A stretch of DNA of 64,000 nt, from the IMG/VR virus record IMGVR_UViG_3300047469_000197, positions 31,131 to 95,130 of that record; one strand, given 5' to 3'. Below, one piece after another: positions 1,206 through 18,199 of the stretch. Every line of letters begins with the position of its first letter. Position 1 is the stretch's first letter. Origin of the DNA: a virus. Below the pieces are notes generated by a model. It made no database searches and had not been told where the DNA came from. It was given only the letters and a program-made list of their open reading frames with translations. The translations under genes and the position numbers were made by a program.

Positions 1206-1847
1206 TTAGTTCTGTATGTCGTATTCGATCCCGGCACGCGTGTAGCTTTCGCGCAGCAGTTCGTACTCAGTGCCGTTCGCTGCCTCAAACTCTGCCCGCC
1301 CGCCGACCGTTCCGCAGGCATGCACCGGCACCAGCCATGAGTATTCTGCTCGCCACTCATCAGGAGCAGCATGCTGGTGGTGCCACTTACACAGCGGGAG
1401 CACTAACTTATGCGCGTCCGGCTTCGTGCGGCCATCGATGTGATGCAGGCTGATCTCCACTGTTTCCTTGCCATTCTTCAGGCACGCAATGCAGGGTAGT
1501 TTGCCCAGCGCATCCATTACCCGGCGCTCGGCTGCGGTTGGCGTTCTGCCTTTACTCCCACGCGAGCGGATCGGGGTGGATCTGGCCTTAACGGCAGGCG
1601 GTGCTGCTGCCTTCTCTTCCTGCTTCTTGCGCGCCTTCTCGGCCTGTTCTGCGCGGTATTCTGGCGAGCTCACGCGGGCGTGGCGCTTTTTGGCCGACTC
1701 AACGGCCTTCTGGAAAACCTGCGCACGGTGTTCGGGATCGGCCCACTTCTCACGTTGTTTCTGCTGCTGCTTAAGCGCAGATCGCTTGGCGGATTCGCGT
1801 TGCTTAGTGCGCTGTTTATCAAGCTGCTCTGCTGAGAGTTGTTTCAT
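1206..1847 (-). CDS. ref: RecA-dependent HNH nuclease Ref
   Basis: 213 aa. Ref is the P1 recombination-enhancement nuclease, which cuts DNA within RecA-dependent D-loops. The N-terminal ~110 residues are Lys/Arg/Gln-rich and probably disordered, as in P1 Ref. The C-terminal part carries the HNH-like zinc domain: CIACLKNG, then SLHHIDGR and CKWHHQHA, then WLVPVHACG. I chose the ATG at 1847 (MKQLSAEQ) because AAAGGTCG lies just upstream; the frame stays open for 18 more codons. The upstream leader contains the sequence AAAGGTCGCCAA shared with three other genes in the window. P1 Ref is 186 aa, so this one has a longer basic tail. The family call rests on motif order and the near-match of the C-terminal domain as I recall it. 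Confidence 0.9.
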   Translation of the reverse strand: MKQLSAEQLDKQRTKQRESAKRSALKQQQKQREKWADPEHRAQVFQKAVESAKKRHARVSSPEYRAEQAEKARKKQEEKAAAPPAVKARSTPIRSRGSKGRTPTAAERRVMDALGKLPCIACLKNGKETVEISLHHIDGRTKPDAHKLVLPLCKWHHQHAAPDEWRAEYSWLVPVHACGTVGGRAEFEAANGTEYELLRESYTRAGIEYDIQN

Positions 1848-1875
1848 GGTTTGGCGACCTTTAGAGCGGGTTGAA

Positions 1876-2190
1876 TTAAGCGACAGAAGGCTGAGGCTCA
1901 TTTAAATTATCGGGCCGCATCCACTCCCAGCGTCGCAGCATGGCGCTGGTGTCATGAATTGGCGCACCAGTCATGGCGAGGCGAGCACGGTGCACGTCAC
2001 GCTCATAGCGCAGACGGGCGGCAAGAGCGACATACCCACCAGCTGGCAGGCCGTGCGATACCAGGCTTTCCAGAGGGTCATAAACCTTGGGGCTATCGAT
2101 CATGCTCATCAGAATGGCTTTATCTATGGCTAACGACAGACTGGTTTTATGGGCGAAGCCGCGTTTAAGCGGGCGCTTTTGTTCGGTCAT
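1876..2190 (-). CDS. Hypothetical protein, Ref operon
   Basis: 104 aa, starting MTEQKRPLKRGF at an ATG with AAGGA upstream. It is helical, with a basic Arg-rich middle, and resembles no family I can name. It overlaps the next upstream gene by an ATGA junction at 2187-2190 and ends 28 bp before ref, so it is probably cotranscribed with ref. Confidence 0.7.
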   Translation of the reverse strand: MTEQKRPLKRGFAHKTSLSLAIDKAILMSMIDSPKVYDPLESLVSHGLPAGGYVALAARLRYERDVHRARLAMTGAPIHDTSAMLRRWEWMRPDNLNEPQPSVA

Positions 2191-5256: not shown

Positions 5257-5480
5257 GGGCATTTGGTCATGTTGGCAAGATTTGAACGCTGAAGCAGGTG
5301 CTCGTTGAGTAAAGCGACAAGCTTACGTGCCTGTGCATCGTCCACCAGTAAGCGCGTTCCGTAAGATTCAATAATCAGGTGGCCAAGAGACTGATCATCC
5401 ATATCGATGGATAGGCATAGCTTATTATTTGAAGGCGGCACGCGGTGGATAGTGTCATCGTGGGAGGTGAAAATAGTCAT
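5253..5480 (-). CDS. Hypothetical protein
   Basis: 75 aa, starting MTIFTSHDDTIHRV; a TTG four codons upstream (5492) is an alternative. The C-terminal half (RLLVDDAQARKLVALLNEHL) is a helix of the kind that ends small adaptor proteins. Overlaps the downstream gene by 4 bp. Function unknown. Confidence 0.6.
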   Translation of the reverse strand: MTIFTSHDDTIHRVPPSNNKLCLSIDMDDQSLGHLIIESYGTRLLVDDAQARKLVALLNEHLLQRSNLANMTKCP

Positions 5481-5527
5481 TGGTTTACTCAAATGAAATG
5501 ACCGGCGCGCAGCCGGTCGGTAAGGGA

Positions 5528-5902
5528 TCAGGCAAGCTTGGCTTTGATTCCAGTGAAATCCAGCAGGGTCACGGTAAATTCTGCCGCCCTGTCTGCCGCC
5601 TCGCGGGTCCAGAAATCGCCCCTCGTTAACAACAGCCGGGAACCGATGTGTTCACGTAGCTGGCGCTGCGCGCGCGCCTCGTTAACCTCATCAAACCAAT
5701 CCTGTAGCGGAGAGCGCCGGAGACACTTAGTCACCTGACACTGTATTAAGCAGGCCAGCCACGAAAGCATGACAAACCAGATCGTACCGCCCCAGCCAGG
5801 CTGAGTGTTGCAGATGCAAGCCACGATATAGATGGCGAAATACGTTTTCCCGAAGCCGTTACGGCCAGCTACCTGCCAAAATTTAGAGACTGAAGTCTTC
5901 AT
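5528..5902 (-). CDS. Membrane protein
   Basis: 124 aa. AGGAT precedes the ATG at 5902 (MKTSVSKFWQVAG). Two adjacent hydrophobic stretches (TYFAIYIVACICN and TIWFVMLSWLACLIQC, residues ~19-57) predict a two-helix inner-membrane anchor. A cytoplasmic Arg/Gln-rich helical domain follows. Function unknown. Confidence 0.65.
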   Translation of the reverse strand: MKTSVSKFWQVAGRNGFGKTYFAIYIVACICNTQPGWGGTIWFVMLSWLACLIQCQVTKCLRRSPLQDWFDEVNEARAQRQLREHIGSRLLLTRGDFWTREAADRAAEFTVTLLDFTGIKAKLA

Positions 5903-5915
5903 ATCGATCCTGTTT

Positions 5916-6245
5916 TTATCTGGGCTTACGCCCTCTATTGGCTGCTGCGTCCAGCTGGTGGATGCGCGTTGCGGCCTGCTGGGCTGAGGCGCTGAACACA
6001 CGGTTAAACGCCTCAATTACATGCCCGTCAGATGCCATCATCTCGGCATAAATCTCACGGGCAATGTTCAGGTCGATAGCCTCGACATATGCCTTAGCAG
6101 CGTCCAGGCTATCCATTGGGCGATCAATTTGTATGTAATGCAGTGGTGAGCCTTGGCTGTAGATAAGCCCGCAAGCAACAACGGGCTGATTACCCCGCAA
6201 GCCTGCCTGTGCGTTCAGCTTGCAATCATCAAGTTGGATAATCAT
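5916..6245 (-). CDS. Hypothetical protein
   Basis: 109 aa, starting MIIQLDDCKLNAQAG with AAAAGGAA 5-6 bases upstream, which makes it a better start than the in-frame codon at 6263. Mixed alpha/beta sequence. No family recognised. A TTAGTAT motif lies 44 bp upstream. Confidence 0.65.
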   Translation of the reverse strand: MIIQLDDCKLNAQAGLRGNQPVVACGLIYSQGSPLHYIQIDRPMDSLDAAKAYVEAIDLNIAREIYAEMMASDGHVIEAFNRVFSASAQQAATRIHQLDAAANRGRKPR

Positions 6246-6667: not shown

Positions 6668-7699
6668 CTACTTGCTGCGCTTCACCTCCTTGACCACGTC
6701 GAGCATGACCGACTTTTCGGCCTCGATATGGCGGATATAGCTCAGCACCTGTTCGGGCCGTTTCCACGTACCCTCATGCATGATCTGCGCGAGAGTTTTC
6801 CCACGCATAGCCATGTCCTGAGCAGCGCCCACGCGCGGGCTGTGTCCCGTCCACGTCCGATAGTGCGGCCCGGTGGCTGGTGGTTTACCCAGCGCGTTCC
6901 AGGCGCGCCCGAAGATCTTGATAACATTTACACGCGTCATCGGCTTGTCGCCCGCATGCGCGTTGTTGTAGCGATCTACCTTACAGAAAATGTACTCTTC
7001 CGGTTTGTCACGAAGCCCAGCCAGCGACAGCCAGTCGAGAACCCAGGCGGCCACTTCCGGCGACAGCGCCTTTGCAATGCTGTTGGCTTCGTCAATGGTC
7101 TTGGTAAACCCGACATCAAAAACAATCGTACCGTTTGGGCGAAACCGCAGATCACCGACCTTCAGGCGCGCCACGTTGGAGATACGCAGTAGCGAACTGT
7201 AAGCCACGCCAATGAAGGCTAAATCGCGACGATCGGCAAGGCGCTCACTGGCTTCCCATAGGGCGGAAATGCGAAACAGATCCTCAACATGCAGCGGCTC
7301 AGCCTGCGAAACTTCTTCGCCGGCACGGGTGGCGCGCTTGCGAATGGCCTTCATGCCCAACGATACATTCATGTCGTCAGACGGGCGCGGCAGGCCTGCA
7401 TGTTTGTGGAGCTTGTTAATCATGGCCATGTGCTGGTTAACGGTGCTGACTTTGCGCCCATGGTCATTTTTGAGGTGTAACAGATACTCCCGGACGTCTG
7501 CCGGAGAGGCGGGAAGCCACGTTTTTCCACGTTCAGTGCACCAGCGCGCCCATACGCGGACAACCGACAACATCTGAGTCATGGTGTTATCTGAATAGGC
7601 GTCCTGGTTCTCAAACAGGATGCGCAGATTTTGCGCTACCCGTTCATCTAAATTGTCGGGCAGCGCCATAACGCCAGTGCCGGTGTCGTTCTCGGACAT
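6668..7699 (-). CDS. cre: Cre-like tyrosine site-specific recombinase
   Basis: 343 aa, the same length as P1 Cre. The catalytic set is present and correctly spaced: R172 (SSLLRISNVARL), K200 (FTKTIDEANS), H286 and R289 (TGHSPRVGAAQDMA), W312 and Y321 (TWKRPEQVLSYIRH). The N-terminal core-binding domain (~residues 20-130) is also Cre-like. Cre resolves plasmid dimers and circularises incoming linear DNA by recombination at lox. GGAG lies 8 bases before the ATG. The candidate partner site is at 8795-8828, about 1.1 kb upstream. Sequence divergence from P1 Cre is substantial, so its site specificity should differ from loxP. Confidence 0.93.
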   Translation of the reverse strand: MSENDTGTGVMALPDNLDERVAQNLRILFENQDAYSDNTMTQMLSVVRVWARWCTERGKTWLPASPADVREYLLHLKNDHGRKVSTVNQHMAMINKLHKHAGLPRPSDDMNVSLGMKAIRKRATRAGEEVSQAEPLHVEDLFRISALWEASERLADRRDLAFIGVAYSSLLRISNVARLKVGDLRFRPNGTIVFDVGFTKTIDEANSIAKALSPEVAAWVLDWLSLAGLRDKPEEYIFCKVDRYNNAHAGDKPMTRVNVIKIFGRAWNALGKPPATGPHYRTWTGHSPRVGAAQDMAMRGKTLAQIMHEGTWKRPEQVLSYIRHIEAEKSVMLDVVKEVKRSK

Positions 7700-7701
7700 A
7701 C

Positions 7702-7914
7702 TCAGCTCTCCTTGTCGCTGGAATGATCGGTAATCTCTTGACCGTTTGCATCCACCAGCGAACGCCAGGGCTTCATGAGTACGCCATCAATAACCACGCA
7801 TCCTTTAGCCTTGTATCGTGACAACAGCTGCGGCGTCATACTATTGGCCTGAGCCATTCGTGTTAGATTGCCACCAAAATACTGCGCTGCGATCTCGTCA
7901 ATTGTCTTTGCCAT
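7702..7914 (-). CDS. Small HTH protein upstream of cre (Cro/Cra position)
   Basis: 70 aa, starting MAKTIDEIAAQYFGG. Residues ~5-40 look like a helix-turn-helix of the Cro/YdaS sort (IAAQYFGGNLTRMAQANSMTPQLLSRY). It ends 2 bp before cre and so is cotranscribed with it, in the position of P1 cra. GAGG precedes the start. Its promoter region carries an inverted repeat (7937-7958). Confidence 0.65.
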   Translation of the reverse strand: MAKTIDEIAAQYFGGNLTRMAQANSMTPQLLSRYKAKGCVVIDGVLMKPWRSLVDANGQEITDHSSDKES

Positions 7915-7958: not shown

Positions 7959-8125
7959 TCAGATAATATTAGAATTCCCATCGGTTTGTCACGGTAATTT
8001 TTTTGCACTATGGCATGCCGGAGCCATCACTAATCGGCGCAATAGATGGCATCTTGTTAAGTTTATCTTAACAAAAGAAATGTAGTGCCGTGGTAAACAT
8101 GCGTCAACTTTTAAAGGCGCATAAC

Positions 8126-8383
8126 ATGGTTCCCAAACGGCTAAAAGCAGCACGGATCGCAGCAGGATTAACACAGGAAAAGCTTGGGGTAATGGCGGGG
8201 ATTGAAGAAGCCTCAGCACGTGCTCGCATGTCATATTATGAATCCGGCACCTACCACCCCAATTTTGACACCGCCTGTCGGATTGCGGCGATCCTCGATG
8301 TACCCGAATGTTACCTTTACGCGGTCGATGACGATTTCGCGGCCTTTATCCTCACATCCTACCACCAGCAAAAACACAGCTAA
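8126..8383 (+). CDS. Xre-family transcription regulator
   Basis: 85 aa, starting MVPKRLKAARIAAG with AAAGG 8 bases upstream. The classical Xre helix-turn-helix fills residues ~4-65: LKAARIAAGLTQEKLGVMAG, ARARMSYYESG, then FDTACRIAAILDVPECYLY. The short 'EEASARARMS' insertion is typical of one enterobacterial repressor subgroup. Divergent from the HTH-cre operon. It could be a lysogeny or plasmid regulator; the target is unknown. Confidence 0.8.
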   Translation: MVPKRLKAARIAAGLTQEKLGVMAGIEEASARARMSYYESGTYHPNFDTACRIAAILDVPECYLYAVDDDFAAFILTSYHQQKHS

Positions 8384-8794: not shown

Positions 8795-8828
8795 CCAAGA
8801 TTACATATTGGATGTTATGTAATCTTGG
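8795..8828. other. Candidate lox recombination site
   Basis: Two perfect 13-bp inverted arms, CCAAGATTACATA (8795-8807) and TATGTAATCTTGG (8816-8828), flank an asymmetric 8-bp spacer TTGGATGT. This is exactly the 13-8-13 layout of loxP, and the arms end in ATA next to the spacer as loxP arms do. It lies 1.1 kb from the Cre-like gene, in a gene-free region. Arm sequence differs from loxP. Function is inferred. Confidence 0.8.
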
Positions 8829-8951: not shown

Positions 8952-9310
8952 CTAATGTCCGGTAGTGCCGTGGTTAATCACTATTTGAAATGATATATAA
9001 GGCCATTCCGAAAAAGTGTTAAAAGTAACAATATAATTTGACGAGCTGACAAGATGACGATCACGGCAACACTCCCCGTAATAGAAGATGTAAATTGCGC
9101 CATAACCAAACTTCACATTGATGTGTGCCGACCTGGTGCCGTCTCCATTCTTGTAAAACACTTCTCCATCGTGTGCGGGACTGTACGCATGTCCAGTGAA
9201 AACCGTCGTGCCTTTAGAAATGCGCTGAGAAAAGTCTGTAATAGTGCAATAAACTAATAAAAAATTGTCAGCTACTGTCCTTTTGGTCGATTTAACCCTG
9301 GAAATATACT
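8952..9310 (-). pseudogene. Possible gene relic, start-less open frame
   Basis: The minus strand is open from after a TAG at ~9310 to a stop at 8952. It reads plausibly as protein (TDFSQRISKGTTVFTGHAYS, then VFYKNGDGTRSAHINVKFG, then a beta-rich tail). There is no ATG or good start at the beginning; the first usable codon is a GTG at 9161. It could be the 3' remnant of a surface or fibre-type gene. Low confidence; it may be chance. Confidence 0.3.
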
Positions 9311-9317: not shown

Positions 9318-9368
9318 TCCTTAGTTTAAGGCGTGCACGTTGCGCGCCTTGCTTGGAGAGTAATCAGT

Positions 9369-10235
9369 ATGCATGACATCAGAAAGGCTGAGATCTTGTA
9401 TCAGGAATTCATTGAATTCCGGGACGCGTTTCTTACTAAAGCCCTATTAGAATCCGCAGCACACAGCACAAACATGCACGGGCAGAAATTCCGCCCCGTG
9501 GTTCAGGTTCCTGAGCGTAAGGCAAATTACTGGCGCGAGCAGATCGCCAAGTGGAATGAGTACGCCGAACAGCTACGCCAGTATCCTGAGCTAGGCATTG
9601 AGAAATCCCTTTATGAGCCAGCCCCGAAGTACATCGAGGGAGCTAACCGCGTTCGTGTAAACGTTGTCCCGGCCATCACTTCGAAGAAGATTAGCCGTGA
9701 GGACGTTATCGATAAGATCAAGTCCACGATCGAGCAGTTCAAGGGCACAGAAGATACTAAACAATTCATTCAGAGCCTTGAAACCCAGCTGGAATTACTC
9801 AGCAGCCTTCCGCCGAAAACAGCGCTGCGCTTGCGCCGTGGCGGGTATGAGGATTTGATCTGCACCTACAACACAACGGTTGAAAAGAAACTCATGGAAC
9901 GCGTCACCGCGAACGGCGTTTTCTTTGATGATCGCGTGCTGCGTTATGGCCTGAAGCTCGGCGAAAAGAGCGCGAACGGTCGCACCTCTATCTATGACAA
10001 CGTGCAGCCTCTGCCTATCACCGTCTATAAAGATTCCAAAATCTACCTGATTTCGGATATCGAACGCGCTACCGCTGAAGTCCGTAACCCGGAAGTGGCC
10101 AAGGCCCGCACCCGTGAGTCATGGAACCGCGCCAACAGCAAACGCCGCGCCGGTACGGAGAAGAAAGCCGCTGCCGTCAAAGGTGCTGGCAATGCCGCCG
10201 GTGAAGTGAATCCAGCTGGTGGAGACACAGAATAA
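9369..10235 (+). CDS. Conserved-looking phage protein of unknown function
   Basis: 288 aa, starting MHDIRKAEILYQEF. GGAGAG lies 9 bases upstream, so I prefer this ATG to the alternative 12 codons earlier. The N-terminal half is helical (FIEFRDAFLTKALLESAAHS, KANYWREQIAKWNEYAEQL). A predicted helical hairpin (KIKSTIEQFKGTED...ETQLELLSSL) leads to a beta-rich core. The C-terminus is Ala/Gly/Lys-rich and probably disordered. It is the only plus-strand gene between lox and pac and converges on pacB across a shared terminator. I do not recognise it. Confidence 0.75.
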   Translation: MHDIRKAEILYQEFIEFRDAFLTKALLESAAHSTNMHGQKFRPVVQVPERKANYWREQIAKWNEYAEQLRQYPELGIEKSLYEPAPKYIEGANRVRVNVVPAITSKKISREDVIDKIKSTIEQFKGTEDTKQFIQSLETQLELLSSLPPKTALRLRRGGYEDLICTYNTTVEKKLMERVTANGVFFDDRVLRYGLKLGEKSANGRTSIYDNVQPLPITVYKDSKIYLISDIERATAEVRNPEVAKARTRESWNRANSKRRAGTEKKAAAVKGAGNAAGEVNPAGGDTE

Positions 10236-10259: not shown

Positions 10260-11759
10260 TTAGTCCTTGAGCCAGTCCAGCGCCTCATTACGGCGGCTCT
10301 CATCGGCCCTGCTGATCACCTCGTTCGCCGGGATGTAATCTGCCAGTTGAGTAAAGCAGAAGGTATCCCAGTGATCGGGCGATTTCAGGTTAAGCTTCGC
10401 CCTCATCTGCTCTTTAGGCATGCACACCCATTGGCCTGCCTCATTGAGAAATACCGGGATTTTGCTCGCCTGGTCAGTGGTTTTCCCGCCCTTATCAAAT
10501 TTCATACGGCCCTGTCGCACGGCGTTGGCCGCATAGACGTTTGCATATGCACGCTGGTTGATGAACCGCTTACGCAGCTCTTTGTTGTGAAGCGGGAAGC
10601 CCCATCGGATGCGCTGCGCAATCACGCCGTGCTTCTCTTCCAGTACGTCCGCCGTTGTGGCACCCACGCCATCTCCATCGATAACAATCGTGATGTTCGG
10701 GTACACCTCCGGATCACATTCGCTGTAGATGTAGTCCGCGAAACGTGACGGGGTCACGGTGGATTCCATTTCCAGCACCTTAAATGGCACCACGCGCCGG
10801 TGTTTTCCGTAGCCACTGATGCGGAATATTGAGAGTACCGACTTATCGCGACCGTTACCCACGTCGCAGCACGCCACCCAGCCCCAGCCCTTAGCCAGGT
10901 ATACATTACGCCGCATTGCGCGATCGCAGTCGTCACGGCCCAGCAGGAAGCCGGATATGGAGGATGGGAACTCACCGCGCACCTTGATGAGGTATTCCGG
11001 ATTCTCCCGCCCGCCGTAGTCCACCAGCTTTTCCCGGATGAACTGCAGCGTAACCAGTGGCGACTCTTCGCTGTTGAGGCGGATCGCCCTATAGATGCCG
11101 TTCGGGTTCTCCGGAGTGACAGCCAGGCGGTGATGTGAGTCATAAAACTCCCCGCTGGTCCGCGTGGGCTGCGAGATGAGCAACAGGCGGTTATCTTCCT
11201 GCGTCAATGCGCCCTTGATGAAGCCAAACGCCTTATCTGATACGCCGGATGCCTCATCGATAATGTAAAGCAGGTGTTCGGCGTGTTCGCCGGCTAGCGC
11301 TTCTTCGTTACCCAAGCGGAAGCCTTTGGGCACCACTTCCCATGCACCCTTAGACTCGGTGGCGAAAAACATCATGTCCGTGAGCGTGAAGTACTGATTC
11401 AGCCACGGGAAGCGCTTAAGGCAGACTTTCCAGTTTTCACGGAGGTACTTGAATATCCCCGTCTTAACCTGCTGCAGCTTGTTCGCCACGATAATGACGC
11501 GGGCGCCGGGGAAGAACAGCATGTAGCAGAGAATCATGATTGAGGTCATATCTGACTTTCCGGTACCGTGTCCGGAGGCGACCGTGGTCTTACTGCCTCC
11601 TTCCTGTACGGCCTCAATAATCATTTCCTGCTGCCATGTCGGGATCTTGCCAAACATCACTTCTGCGGCGCTGATCCAGTCGTATCGGTACAACAGAACC
11701 AGCTCCTGCCAGCGCGGGTCATCTAATACCGAGCGCTTAGCCTTATTGCTGGTGGCCAT
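10260..11759 (-). CDS. pacB: Terminase large subunit (PacB-like)
   Basis: 499 aa. Phage DNA packaging ATPase-nuclease. Walker A is GHGTGKSD at residues 63-70; Walker B is LLYIIDEAS at ~163-171, followed by the ATPase coupling motif region LLISQPTR. The nuclease domain includes [16 protein letters not shown] near residue 290 and [14 protein letters not shown] near 360, with acidic residues in RNase H-like positions. P1 PacB is of similar length. GGAG lies 9 bases before the ATG. It overlaps the end of pacA by 17 bp, as expected for a terminase operon. Confidence 0.9.
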
Positions 11760-12972
11760 CGTCTACATCTCCATACAGATGGTTGTTAATCTCTTCGTCC
11801 GGCTCTTCACCATCAGCAAAGTCCGGCATCAGGTTCAGGTCATTCAGTGAGCCGTCAGCGGACACGTCACCCGCCCCCATGTCGTCCACAATCACGTTGA
11901 CGGCTTCCCGCTTCTCGGCCAGCGTGATTTCTAACTCGGCCATACGTGTGGCGCGCTGCTCACGTGCGCGGCGATCCAGCTCTGCCAGGTCAACAGGCTG
12001 TGAGTTAATGTCTTCTCCTGCCCCTTCTTTCATCTCTGCGCGGGCCAACTCCAGCAGCAGAGAAGGAACTTTGAAGCCGTTCGCCTCGATGTAGATGGCT
12101 GTTTCCATGGCGGTCCACTTCTCTGCCTTGCGGCGTGCGTAAGCCTCCATCACACGCTCTGGCTCTGAGAGTTTGCGCAGGTGGAGCTGCTGTTCGCGTT
12201 GGTCTTTGGAATAGCTCTGGCGGAGTCCGGCCATGGTGCGGGCGGTATCGTTGATGCTGGCTGCGGCTGCAGCGAGAACGGAAACGGCTTTGTTGATGGT
12301 GGGCGGCTCATCCTCGCCGGGTACGTGTTCTTCCAGGTGGGCGAGCATTTCAGTAACCGCGCGCTCAAGGGCAAACTGATTAACGAGGGCGCTGCGTATC
12401 ATTCTCGCCTCAATGTCATCGACACCGGCGCGGCTCATCAGCGCCTCGGCTTCCGCGAGATCGTTGTCGTCCGGGACGAGGGCACCAACCAACACCTGGC
12501 CGCCAGCTTTACTCTGATCACCGGCGCGCCCCGACTTGGTCTTTTTGCCGACAACATCCATCAATTGTCCCGTGAGCACACTCGCGGGCGTTTCAGCACC
12601 GGGGGCCGTGTCGCGTGCCTTGGCGGCGCGCACCTGCTCACTTAACGCATTGATTTTACTGGCGGTGGTTTCCCGCTCGCCCACTGAGGTTTGATCACGC
12701 TTGTGATCAGTTTTGCTTTTGCGATCAATTGATCGCGGAGGTGTTTTTGATCGCGAAACTGATCGCGGGGCTGTTTTGGAGGCAGATTTAGCTCCCACCT
12801 GACTGGTTCCCACGCCCAGGTTACGGCGGGCTGTGCCGTGATTTAAATCATATAAATCAGCATATTCCTTTATCGTAACGTCCTGCTTCTGCCTCATCTG
12901 GGCTAGGCGTTCTCTGTGTTCATTCCAGTCCGTTTTCACTTCGCGATCACCGTCTATTACTACGTTGATCAC
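11743..12972 (-). CDS. pacA: Terminase small subunit / pac-recognition protein (PacA-like)
   Basis: Up to 409 aa. In P1, PacA binds and helps cut the methylated pac site. The N-terminus ([20 protein letters not shown], then [20 protein letters not shown]) closely parallels the helix-turn-helix start of P1 PacA as I recall it. A basic Ser/Thr/Lys linker (~60-110) is followed by a long helical region and an acidic C-terminus ([13 protein letters not shown]) that could contact PacB. The first usable codon is the GTG at 12972; a GTG at 12939 (VKTDWNEH) fits P1 better. GATC-rich clusters lie inside codons ~70-94 and across the start. Upstream neighbour in the opposite direction is parM. Confidence 0.85.
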
Positions 12973-13157: not shown

Positions 13158-14264
13158 ATGACTAAAAGTGCACAAACCCCTGTTTTCGTTGCTGTCGATG
13201 GTGGCTCAGGCAATATCGCAGTGCGTTACACCGACGATCAGGGCAATGACGTCTTCAAAATTTCACCGTCACTCATTCGCCGTGGCCTGCTTCAGCAGGG
13301 TACGCAAGAATCTACTTCGACGTGGTTGACCGCCGATGGTGCGCTGTTCTCGGTTGTTGACGATGGCACCAGCATGGAGCTGGAGAACACCTGTGACACC
13401 ATTTACCAGCTGTCTGCGCAAAACCGCGTCCTGGTGCTGGATGCACTGGTTAAAGCGGGCCTGAGCGGTCGTGACGTGGTTATCGCCGATACGCTGCCTG
13501 CCGATCAGTTCTATGGCGACAACGGCATTAACTACGCCCGCATTGAGGAAAAGAAAAAGAACCTCATGCAGCCGATCACCAGCTACACCGGTGCCATTAA
13601 GCCGCCGCGCGTTATCCACTCGGTGATCATGCCGGAAGCCGTTACCGCTTACGTCAGCGCCAGCGTCAGCCCGGACGGCACGCTCAACCCTGCGTTCGAA
13701 GGCGTGACGCGCTGCATCATTGTTGACCTTGGCCGCTTCACCTGCGATATCGCCGTGGTAAACAGCTCGCTTGACGTCCTGAACCGCATCACCACCGAGC
13801 ACGGTATTCACGTGATGGTTCAGCGCCTCTATCACCTCATCCAGCTGCATGAGAAGGAGCTGGGCCTGAGTGAGTCCAAAGAGCTTAATATGGCGTCTAT
13901 GGATGGCTTCATTGAGCGCGGCTACATTGGTTCACAGGCAAAAGCCCGCGAAGCACACCGTAAAGATATCCGCCCTCTGATTTTGCAGGCGGCGCAAGAG
14001 CTGGCTGAACAGATTAAGAGTGACATCCGCGCGGTGACGCACGGTTTCGCTGATGATATCGATATGCTGCTGTTTGTTGGCGGCGGGGCTAACTGGCTGG
14101 GCGGTGCGCTCGAGTTCGTTGGCGATCTGAGCAGTGACTGGCACGACTACACCCATATTCCGGCTCACCCGGAGCGGGCTGTCGTTGATGGTGCATTCCT
14201 CATGCTGGAGCAGCGTAAGGCGCACATCATGGCCGAGCTCACGAAGCCCGTAACGGAGGCGTGA
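13158..14264 (+). CDS. parM: ParM-like actin-type plasmid segregation ATPase
   Basis: 368 aa. Polymerises into filaments that push sister plasmids apart (type II partition). Actin-fold signatures: N-terminal phosphate loop VFVAVDGGSGNIAVRY, second phosphate segment CIIVDLGRFTCDIAVV near residue 190, and adenosine motif MLLFVGGGANWLGGAL near 300. AGGGA precedes the ATG. It forms an operon with the ParR-like gene 1 base downstream. The 185 bp upstream holds part of the pac cluster and an inverted TGTCGG pair, where a parC centromere would be expected; clear iterated repeats were not seen. P1 itself uses ParA/ParB, so this module is a replacement. Confidence 0.9.
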   Translation: MTKSAQTPVFVAVDGGSGNIAVRYTDDQGNDVFKISPSLIRRGLLQQGTQESTSTWLTADGALFSVVDDGTSMELENTCDTIYQLSAQNRVLVLDALVKAGLSGRDVVIADTLPADQFYGDNGINYARIEEKKKNLMQPITSYTGAIKPPRVIHSVIMPEAVTAYVSASVSPDGTLNPAFEGVTRCIIVDLGRFTCDIAVVNSSLDVLNRITTEHGIHVMVQRLYHLIQLHEKELGLSESKELNMASMDGFIERGYIGSQAKAREAHRKDIRPLILQAAQELAEQIKSDIRAVTHGFADDIDMLLFVGGGANWLGGALEFVGDLSSDWHDYTHIPAHPERAVVDGAFLMLEQRKAHIMAELTKPVTEA

Positions 14265-14265
14265 T

Positions 14266-14754
14266 ATGGCAGAGAATGACGCCCGCAAACGTGATGCTTT
14301 AACGTTTTCTATCACCGCCCAGGTGCGAAAATCAGCGGCTTCATGCCGTTTTGTAGATGAATTTCGTGCATCGGGAGAACACGCCGAAAAGCGTGCCAAA
14401 GTGATTGCGGCGCTGCGTTCTGGTCAGATGCTTGAAGAGGCTGGCTTAGAGCCAGTCCTCGCATTCCTGGACACGGAAGGGTTTGAAAACCTGAATGTGA
14501 GAGAGCGTCAGCTGCTTGTGCTGGCGCGATTGCAGGATTTTATGGGGGTTAATCCCCATACTGCACCCGTTGCCGTCCCGGTGGAGGTTGTCGCACAACC
14601 ACCATCAGCCCAGGAACAGCAGGCAGAAGAGCCAGAAACTCAGCAGCAGGCCACATCCGAAAAACCGGATGAAAAGCCACCAGCTGAACCACCAGTTGCA
14701 GATAAGAAGCCCAATCCGATGCTTGCTAATTTCGCCAGCAAGCTATCTGGCTAA
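14266..14754 (+). CDS. parR: ParR/StbB-like partition adaptor
   Basis: 162 aa. Follows parM by 1 bp. The N-terminus (RDALTFSITAQVRKSAASCR) looks like the ribbon-helix-helix domain that binds the centromere. A central helical part and a Pro/Glu/Gln-rich linker (EQQAEEPETQQQ, EKPPAEPPV) lead to a short conserved-looking tail (NPMLANFASKLSG) that would bind ParM. The call rests mainly on position and architecture. Confidence 0.75.
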   Translation: MAENDARKRDALTFSITAQVRKSAASCRFVDEFRASGEHAEKRAKVIAALRSGQMLEEAGLEPVLAFLDTEGFENLNVRERQLLVLARLQDFMGVNPHTAPVAVPVEVVAQPPSAQEQQAEEPETQQQATSEKPDEKPPAEPPVADKKPNPMLANFASKLSG

Positions 14755-15132
14755 TCGTGATCGTCCCATCAGTGAAAGGGCAAGGCGTAATATTTCGCTC
14801 TCTGCCCTTTCCTTCTCATCATCGCTCATCAGCATTACCGTCCGCCGCCTTGGGTCGATCCGTTCCGGATTGCGACAGCGCTTAAAAAAGGCATCATCCA
14901 GGTGCTTGAGGTGGAAGGTTCGCGGCCTGACAGTATCATCAACAATACAGTCCGAATTATGCGATTTCGCGATAGACAGCATACGTAAGTACACTTCGCT
15001 AACCGACGAACGGTATTGTGGATAACGCTTTTTCAACCCTTCTGTAACCTCTCTGGCGCTGGCTGGTCTGCCATGCTCAATGAGGTACTGCGAAATCTCC
15101 CACGATGTAAATCTCTTGTGCTCGGCTGCCAA
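14743..15132 (-). CDS. Putative winged-helix regulator
   Basis: 129 aa from a TTG at 15132 (MAAEHKRFTSWEISQYLIEH). Residues ~8-60 read as a winged helix (SWEISQYLIEHGRPASAREV, then a RYPQYRSSVSEVYLRMLS recognition helix). The C-terminus is basic and helical. It converges with parR and overlaps it by 12 bp. Reminiscent of CaiF/GrlA-type regulators, but this is a guess. A TTAGTAT motif at 15351 points towards it. Confidence 0.55.
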   Translation of the reverse strand: MAAEHKRFTSWEISQYLIEHGRPASAREVTEGLKKRYPQYRSSVSEVYLRMLSIAKSHNSDCIVDDTVRPRTFHLKHLDDAFFKRCRNPERIDPRRRTVMLMSDDEKERAESEILRLALSLMGRSRLAR

Positions 15133-15394: not shown

Positions 15395-15889
15395 TTATTT
15401 GACTACGCGCATGAGAGAAACAAACGTTCGGCTGTCATTTGACTCTTCCACCAGCTCGGCCCAGTCATCAGGTGGGTTGCCATCTTCCAGCATTCCCTTA
15501 AAGACGCGGTAAGCATCAGATTTAGAGCCATAGGTGCGTAATGTGGTTTCGTCATTCATCCAGGCCAGAATAATTATCTTGCTCTGTGTGTCGTATCTGA
15601 AGAAGAGGCGATAACGTCCAGCTGCAAACTTTGCCCTGCGCCAGCCCCGATATCCTTCACCCAGCGTGTTCCCCTGACGGTATTCATTCCCGGATGGGTT
15701 AACGGTGATCCCCTCATTAATGACTTTCTTCACAACATCCAAAAGCTTGGTGCAACGCTTGCCCTGGAAAGTGTCCGGGTTTTTCTCTCGCTCTTTCTCG
15801 ACCTGCTCAGTCAAGTTGGTAATCTGCTCTTGAAAGCACGGGTGGAGTAATACGGTCCACCCGTTTATTTTTTCTGACTCTGGGGTCAT
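15395..15889 (-). CDS. yhaV: Toxin of PrlF-YhaV system (YhaV-like)
   Basis: 164 aa. YhaV is a RelE-superfamily ribosome-associated mRNA endonuclease that stops growth until neutralised by PrlF. The whole sequence fits: INGWTVLLHPCFQEQI, FQGKRCTKLLDVVKKV, LGEGYRGWRRAKFAAGRYRL, KIIILAWMNDETTLRTYGSK and VFKGMLEDGNPPDDW. Its ATG overlaps the stop of the antitoxin gene (TAATG). Provides post-segregational killing for the plasmid form, as Phd/Doc does in P1. Confidence 0.92.
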   Translation of the reverse strand: MTPESEKINGWTVLLHPCFQEQITNLTEQVEKEREKNPDTFQGKRCTKLLDVVKKVINEGITVNPSGNEYRQGNTLGEGYRGWRRAKFAAGRYRLFFRYDTQSKIIILAWMNDETTLRTYGSKSDAYRVFKGMLEDGNPPDDWAELVEESNDSRTFVSLMRVVK

Positions 15890-16233
15890 TAGTCGTCGTC
15901 CGTTAGTTCCGCGTCTATATCGGTGTCCATGCCAGCAGTCAGCTCGTTAATACGCGCAAACAATGATGCATCAAGCGGCTTCAGATTTTGAGGGTTGGCC
16001 TCCATATCCTTATCCAGAAAACTCAGGAAGCTTTGGATCACCGGATCCAGGTGCTCTTCTTCTTCCTGCTGACGTGAAAGCATCACTTGGCCACCAGCCA
16101 AAAGTGAATACTCGAGATATTCACCCGGCATGAGGTGGAGCGCATCCCTGACTGCGGGCGGTATGGTTGTTTGACTGCGCTCTGTGAGGCGGGATTGCAC
16201 TCTCAGCGCTACATCAGATTTTAAAATGTTCAT
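15889..16233 (-). CDS. prlF: Antitoxin PrlF (SohA)-like
   Basis: 114 aa from ATG at 16233 (MNILKSDVALRVQS); the in-frame codon at 16257 is less well placed. The N-terminal swapped-hairpin (SpoVT/AbrB) DNA-binding fold is visible in RLTERSQTTIPPAVRDALHL followed by PGEYLEYSL. The acidic C-terminus (INELTAGMDTDIDAELTDDD) should wrap YhaV. Autoregulation of the operon by the complex is expected from the family. Confidence 0.9.
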   Translation of the reverse strand: MNILKSDVALRVQSRLTERSQTTIPPAVRDALHLMPGEYLEYSLLAGGQVMLSRQQEEEEHLDPVIQSFLSFLDKDMEANPQNLKPLDASLFARINELTAGMDTDIDAELTDDD

Positions 16234-16337
16234 AATTTGCTTTTTCCTCACAATCAACGCCTCAATAATAATGCACCTGCATTACGAATGCAATTGCATT
16301 CACTGGGGTTAGTTGCGTATTTACCCGGCTTAATTGA

Positions 16338-17479: not shown

Positions 17480-17716
17480 TTCACATTATCACCATCCCGG
17501 ATAAATAAAAGAGAGAATTCTGTAAATATCTAATTTAATCAATCTCTTGTAAAGCTGACTTAACACAGCTTGCTCAGCTGGCTTAACAAACCATCACTAT
17601 TGGAAAGTCGACTATCCACAGAGCAGTAAAACTATTTGTGTGGGCCTCGATTTATTAACATTGCTGAAGCTTTTGTTATAATCAGTCCCGAACATTAATC
17701 AACTTGGATGATTACT
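17480..17716. other. Divergent intergenic region
   Basis: 237 bp between the 224-aa gene and the Tlde1-like gene; AT-rich around 17515-17690. A degenerate TTAG-type element (17521-17540) is too weak to count. No gene seen. Confidence 0.4.
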
Positions 17717-18199
17717 ATGGCTTTGACTTGTAATTTCGCCCTTAACGGCATGCCTATGTCTCTTCTCACCTGTTACGGGATCGGCACGTTCCCGGCATTC
17801 TCTGGTCAGAAGCAGGGGCGTAACAATGCCAGCCTCACTACAGTGAAAAATATTGGCCCTATCCCCCAAGGGCGCTACTACATCGTTGGGCGGGAGTCTG
17901 GCGGGCGACTCGGTGATTTGCGGGAAAGCATATTGAAATATGGTTACGGTACTGACCGCCGAGAATGGTTTGCGCTTTACAGGTCTGACGGCAAAATTGA
18001 TGACTGGACGTTTATAGAGGGAGTTAAACGCGGTAATTTCCGTCTCCACCCGATCGGGCCAATGGGATTAAGTGAAGGGTGTATAACCCTGAACCACATA
18101 ACGGATTTTGAACATCTCCGCCGACAGCTTCTTAGAACAAGTATGATCAATGTGCCCGGCTCTCAGATGAAAGCCTACGGCACAATACAGGTGGATTAA
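17717..18199 (+). CDS. Tlde1-like L,D-transpeptidase-fold effector (DUF2778)
   Basis: 160 aa from ATG 17717 (MALTCNFALNGMPMSL). Tlde1 proteins are type VI secretion effectors that attack or modify peptidoglycan stem peptides in the periplasm. Family features: N-terminal GIGTFPAFSGQ, the core NIGPIPQGRYYIV, and the catalytic block FRLHPIGP...LSEGCITL, with the H-x(n)-S-x-G-C arrangement of the L,D-transpeptidase active site. There is no signal peptide, as usual for the family. A 79-aa membrane protein overlaps the stop codon and is the likely immunity partner. On a phage-plasmid this may be a competition moron. Confidence 0.85.
   Translation: MALTCNFALNGMPMSLLTCYGIGTFPAFSGQKQGRNNASLTTVKNIGPIPQGRYYIVGRESGGRLGDLRESILKYGYGTDRREWFALYRSDGKIDDWTFIEGVKRGNFRLHPIGPMGLSEGCITLNHITDFEHLRRQLLRTSMINVPGSQMKAYGTIQVD

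Follow-up and report, generated by a model that had tools for sequence, protein, structure and literature searches.

What is the function of the perfect palindrome that lies upstream of a Cre-like gene in this viral DNA? Within the window, by which we mean the whole 64,000-nucleotide stretch that was analysed from a 95,130-bp viral record, two features raise the question:

8795 to 8828, no strand assigned: lox-type recombination site, an inverted repeat with perfectly matched arms that occurs once in the record
6668 to 7699, minus strand: Cre-type tyrosine recombinase of 343 amino acids, assigned by sequence identity, Pfam Phage_integrase and predicted fold

The preliminary description had proposed perfect 13-bp inverted arms around an asymmetric 8-bp spacer, the geometry of loxP, and the letters at 8795-8828 agree. 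The element reads CCAAGATTACATA-TTGGATGT-TATGTAATCTTGG, with arms at 8795-8807 and 8816-8828 (CCAAGATTACATA) that are complementary at 13 of 13 positions and a spacer at 8808-8815 (TTGGATGT, or ACATCCAA when read toward cre). The same account placed it 1.1 kb from a 343-residue Cre homologue; the measured distance is 1,095 bp, with the site upstream of the gene. The locus thus shows the features of a Cre/lox-type site, namely 34 bp, 13-bp inverted arms, an asymmetric 8-bp spacer and a recombinase gene nearby. From base composition, the expected number of such repeats is about 1e-3 for the window and 1e-5 for the intergenic stretch, and a 4-Mb Markov simulation contained no perfect repeat of this form. 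The element is the only perfect repeat in the window with 13-bp arms and a gap of 6 to 10 bp, and the 34-bp sequence is the sole match to itself, at three or fewer mismatches, in the window and the whole 95,130-bp record. No half-sites (two or fewer mismatches) were found elsewhere in the window. Judged from its sequence, the element very probably serves the neighbouring Cre-type recombinase as its native lox site, in what is a P1-like phage-plasmid.

Sites of this kind accompany most relatives of the recombinase. We searched the 2.5 kb upstream of 54 recombinases of different sequence for repeats of 13-8-13 form whose inner ends are ATA/TAT, allowing up to three mismatches, and found one beside 51 of them. 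The ATA/TAT requirement was chosen after a first look at the relatives’ sites; control DNA from other parts of the same loci, scored by the same criterion, gave 5 matches in 406 kb (0.03 per 2.5 kb). As positive controls, the survey recovered loxP itself from P1 and from Cronobacter phage JK004. Of the three loci without such a site, L016 does contain a perfect palindrome, at L016:774-809 beside a Xenorhabdus yunnanensis recombinase, but its ATA and TAT are separated by 10 bp instead of 8, which is odd for a lox site. The usual distance from site to cre in the relatives is 150-450 bp; the 1.1 kb of the window is comparable to the 1.5 kb of JK004 and the 1.95 kb of the locus with the nearest relative. 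Among 31 recombinases below 90% identity, arm distance tracks recombinase distance (Mantel r 0.30, 2 of 5000 permutations), and spacer distance does so to a similar degree (r 0.28, 0 of 5000).

The nearest recombinase found, 62% identical to that of the window, is encoded on Pantoea sp. CCBC3-3-1 plasmid unnamed3 (NZ_CP034366, our locus L001), which has a repeat at the matching relative place, CCAAGGCAATATA-ACATCCAA-TATATGGCCTTGG. In that reading direction the window site is CCAAGATTACATA-ACATCCAA-TATGTAATCTTGG. The spacers are identical at 8 of 8 positions, as are the outer CCAAG and inner ATA of the arm, whereas the arms differ at four of their 13 positions, all in the middle. The changes affect both arms, and at three of these four positions the new base is the same on the two sides. 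Changes of this kind would be expected if a single protein recognises the two halves of the site. Citrobacter relatives (53% identical) carry CAAAAGTAATATA-ACACCCAT-TATATTACCTTTG. Absence of the site beside close homologues had been named in the preliminary description as evidence against its reading, and the outcome favours that reading: a site is present as an orthologous repeat in the Pantoea plasmid (62%), in the Citrobacter loci (53%) and in 51 of the 54 relatives overall.

Searches with the site sequence itself returned little. An exact search of IMG/VR for the arm gave no matches, blastn of the 34-mer against plasmids and phages gave partial chance matches only, and a sample of 395 genomes from one order contained no recombinase more than 45% identical to that of the window. 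A looser CCAAG...CTTGG pattern matched a single locus, L033, which we regard as chance: it is not palindromic and has no recombinase match.

A palindrome might also act as a transcription terminator or RNA hairpin, and the strand does fold well as RNA (-23.5 kcal/mol, z -3.9), although any perfect 13-bp palindrome would fold so. No T run lies downstream, the element is absent from the terminator scan and it has no Rfam match. Moreover, the loop is kept while the stems change, and the ATA/TAT ends are kept across 51 loci, a pattern that suits a protein site. We therefore regard a terminator or hairpin as vanishingly improbable, and return to the lox site and its neighbours:

1206 to 1901, minus strand: homologue of the RecA-dependent nuclease Ref, which also follows cre in P1 (Pfam RecA_dep_nuc, 1.4e-34)
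7702 to 7914, minus strand: 70-aa ORF just upstream of cre, in the position of Cra in P1, with nucleotide similarity to CDS 5720-5953 of the Pantoea locus
8090 to 8383, plus strand: HTH_3 transcriptional regulator between lox and cre (Pfam HTH_3, 8e-9), kept as CDS 5259-5516 of the Pantoea locus
9054 to 9257, plus strand: 67-aa ORF where P1 has coi, flanked by lox and the C1-like gene, 57% identical to the ORF at the same place in the Pantoea locus
9363 to 10235, plus strand: homologue of the P1 repressor C1 (29% identity over 242 aa, E 2e-33; phrog_1678)
10260 to 11759, minus strand: PacB homologue (terminase), 61% identical to P1 PacB
11743 to 12972, minus strand: PacA homologue, 27% identical to P1 PacA (E 4e-26), holding the probable pac site
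12515 to 12765, no strand assigned: probable pac site within the 5' part of pacA, where TGATC(A/G) hexamers are clustered more densely than anywhere else in the window
14743 to 15132: Lpa homologue, part of the P1-type module

The gene order lpa-pacA-pacB-c1-lox-cre-ref is that of P1, in which lox is flanked by coi/c1 and cre, and the presence around lox of lpa, pacA, pacB, C1, cre and ref homologues in this order marks the element as that of a P1-like phage-plasmid. The hexamer cluster occupies the same position in pacA as the P1 pac hexamers, about 3.7-4.0 kb from the lox site. The 70-aa ORF has no Pfam or PHROG matches, and the 67-aa ORF has only marginal similarity to P1 Coi. The site had been described as lying in a gene-free region; the surrounding DNA is indeed gene-poor, but the HTH regulator and the conserved 70-aa ORF stand between site and recombinase. 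The Pantoea plasmid resembles the window here too, in the position of its site and in the intervening HTH gene and small ORF.

With the HTH regulator gene 410 bp away and the C1-like gene 530 bp away, the palindrome could instead be an operator of one of these proteins and not a recombination site. The 13-8-13 site upstream of cre nevertheless persists where the intervening HTH gene is missing, in Citrobacter, Xenorhabdus, Serratia and P1. An asymmetric 8-bp spacer would be needless for an operator, yet it is identical in the Pantoea plasmid while the arms have changed. The annotated P1 C1 operators have another form (17-bp ‘monovalent’ sites), and the lack of a second copy in the record would be unusual for a repressor operator. 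An operator is thus extremely unlikely.

Several other features of the region deserve mention. A 16-nt direct repeat, GTAGTGCCGTGGT(A/T)AA, occurs in exactly two copies in the 95-kb record, at 8082-8097 and 8962-8977, flanking lox. One copy is found where the HTH gene begins, the other ahead of the coi-like ORF. The repeat is a candidate operator, for either the HTH regulator or the C1-like one. A ParM-type partition gene and a downstream ORF (13158-14754) are found between Lpa and PacA, unlike the P1 arrangement. Further along the window are a PrlF/YhaV-type toxin-antitoxin pair (15395-16257) and, in what is a phage-plasmid, a Tlde1-domain protein (17708-18199).

Is the recombinase equipped to use the site? 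Its sequence identity is 38.5% with P1 Cre and 42.9% with Dre, and the top matches of its predicted fold in a structure search were Cre-loxP structures. The preliminary description credited it with all catalytic residues. This holds for R173, K201, H289, R292, W315 and Y324 (Cre numbering), but not for the catalytic Glu176 of Cre, which is Asn, nor for position 282, which is His where the other 50 recombinases compared have Arg. We count the tyrosine-recombinase catalytic set as present, in the E176N variant common to five other family members, all of the Xenorhabdus group. At the positions linked to loxP selectivity the enzyme carries K43T, R259V, E262I and G263K, and V259, I262 and H282 occur in no other recombinase of the 51-relative comparison. 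The Pantoea enzyme, in contrast, has E176, K259, E262 and R282.

The site could therefore be a genuine lox site, or a relic of one, beside a recombinase (E176N, R282H, I262) that is now inactive or retargeted elsewhere. Four substitutions at strongly conserved or specificity positions, three of them unique among the 51 relatives, are consistent with this, as is the fairly long terminal branch of the window recombinase. The ORF is intact, however, and the six residues listed above are kept, while each of the five Xenorhabdus-group recombinases with E176N has its own lox-type site. The arms are perfectly symmetric, and symmetry would decay without a reader. A retargeted enzyme would have no other candidate site in the window. 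Loss or retargeting is very unlikely, although the activity of the recombinase may be reduced, given N176 and the unique V259, I262 and H282.

If the pair works as Cre/loxP does, each 13-bp arm would be bound by one recombinase monomer, two sites would synapse with the asymmetric spacer fixing their direction, and strand exchange would take place close to the ends of the spacer, by way of Tyr324 and a Holliday junction. In P1, recombination at lox turns the injected, terminally redundant DNA into circles and resolves dimers of the prophage. By analogy, the window site may serve to circularise injected phage DNA that is terminally redundant, and may also allow dimers of the plasmid-prophage to be resolved. 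The first role is suggested by the position of the site about 4 kb from pac, hence within the redundancy of the first headful.

The pair shares with P1 Cre/loxP the 13-8-13 form and the ATA/TAT inner ends; in both, the site is flanked by the c1 region and cre and lies about 4 kb from pac. It differs at 7 of 13 arm positions, bearing out the earlier claim that the arm is unlike loxP, at 3 of 8 spacer positions, and in the recombinase at residues 43, 259, 262 and 263 and at E176 and R282. The layout differs too, the window site being 1.1 kb from cre with an HTH gene between. There is no cross-reaction between loxP and rox, whose arms are different at just 3 of 13 positions (PMC7438526). K43, R259 and G263 are reported to separate loxP from rox selectivity, with E262 acting as a ‘guardian’ (PMC7438526, PMC4957104). 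As the window arm departs from loxP at more positions than rox does, the pair is likely to be orthogonal to Cre/loxP. The window recombinase, the Pantoea enzyme and four Citrobacter-type ones form one clade with 100/99 support, and the arms of all of them depart from the AACTT-type arm common to most Cre relatives. This clade has probably left the AACTT-type arm for a recognition code of its own, accompanied by the natural substitutions T43, V259, I262 and K263 at residues that determine loxP selectivity; the window pair would then be a naturally orthogonal one.

An established approach is to predict lox-like sites next to relatives of Cre and to test them afterwards (Karimova et al. 2016, Nigri/nox, Panto/pox; PMC4957104). 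Panto/pox, Nigri/nox, Dre/rox of D6, Vika/vox and VCre/VloxP each combine, like the window, a Cre-type recombinase with a lox-like site nearby, and several were first predicted from sequence and then tested. Their recombinases and arms are different ones, and they have been tested in cells; the window pair is a prediction from sequence. Jelicic et al. 2023 (NAR 51:5285, cited in PMC13199778) reportedly surveyed novel Cre-type recombinases. The evidence gives good support to the window pair as a further Cre/lox-type pair, of a kind already established, its newness being judged apart from the Jelicic et al. 2023 set.

Orthogonal Cre/lox pairs are few, and are useful in combined genome engineering. 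The survey offers a simple rule, backed by controls, for finding more sites: scan the 2.5 kb upstream of the recombinase for a 13-8-13 ATA/TAT repeat. Natural pairs whose specificity has shifted also help to show how Cre-type enzymes choose their DNA, and among the nearest relatives here both arms have changed around a constant spacer. If the clade does have its own code, the 51 recombinase-site pairs would be a usable data set for reading the specificity code of Cre.
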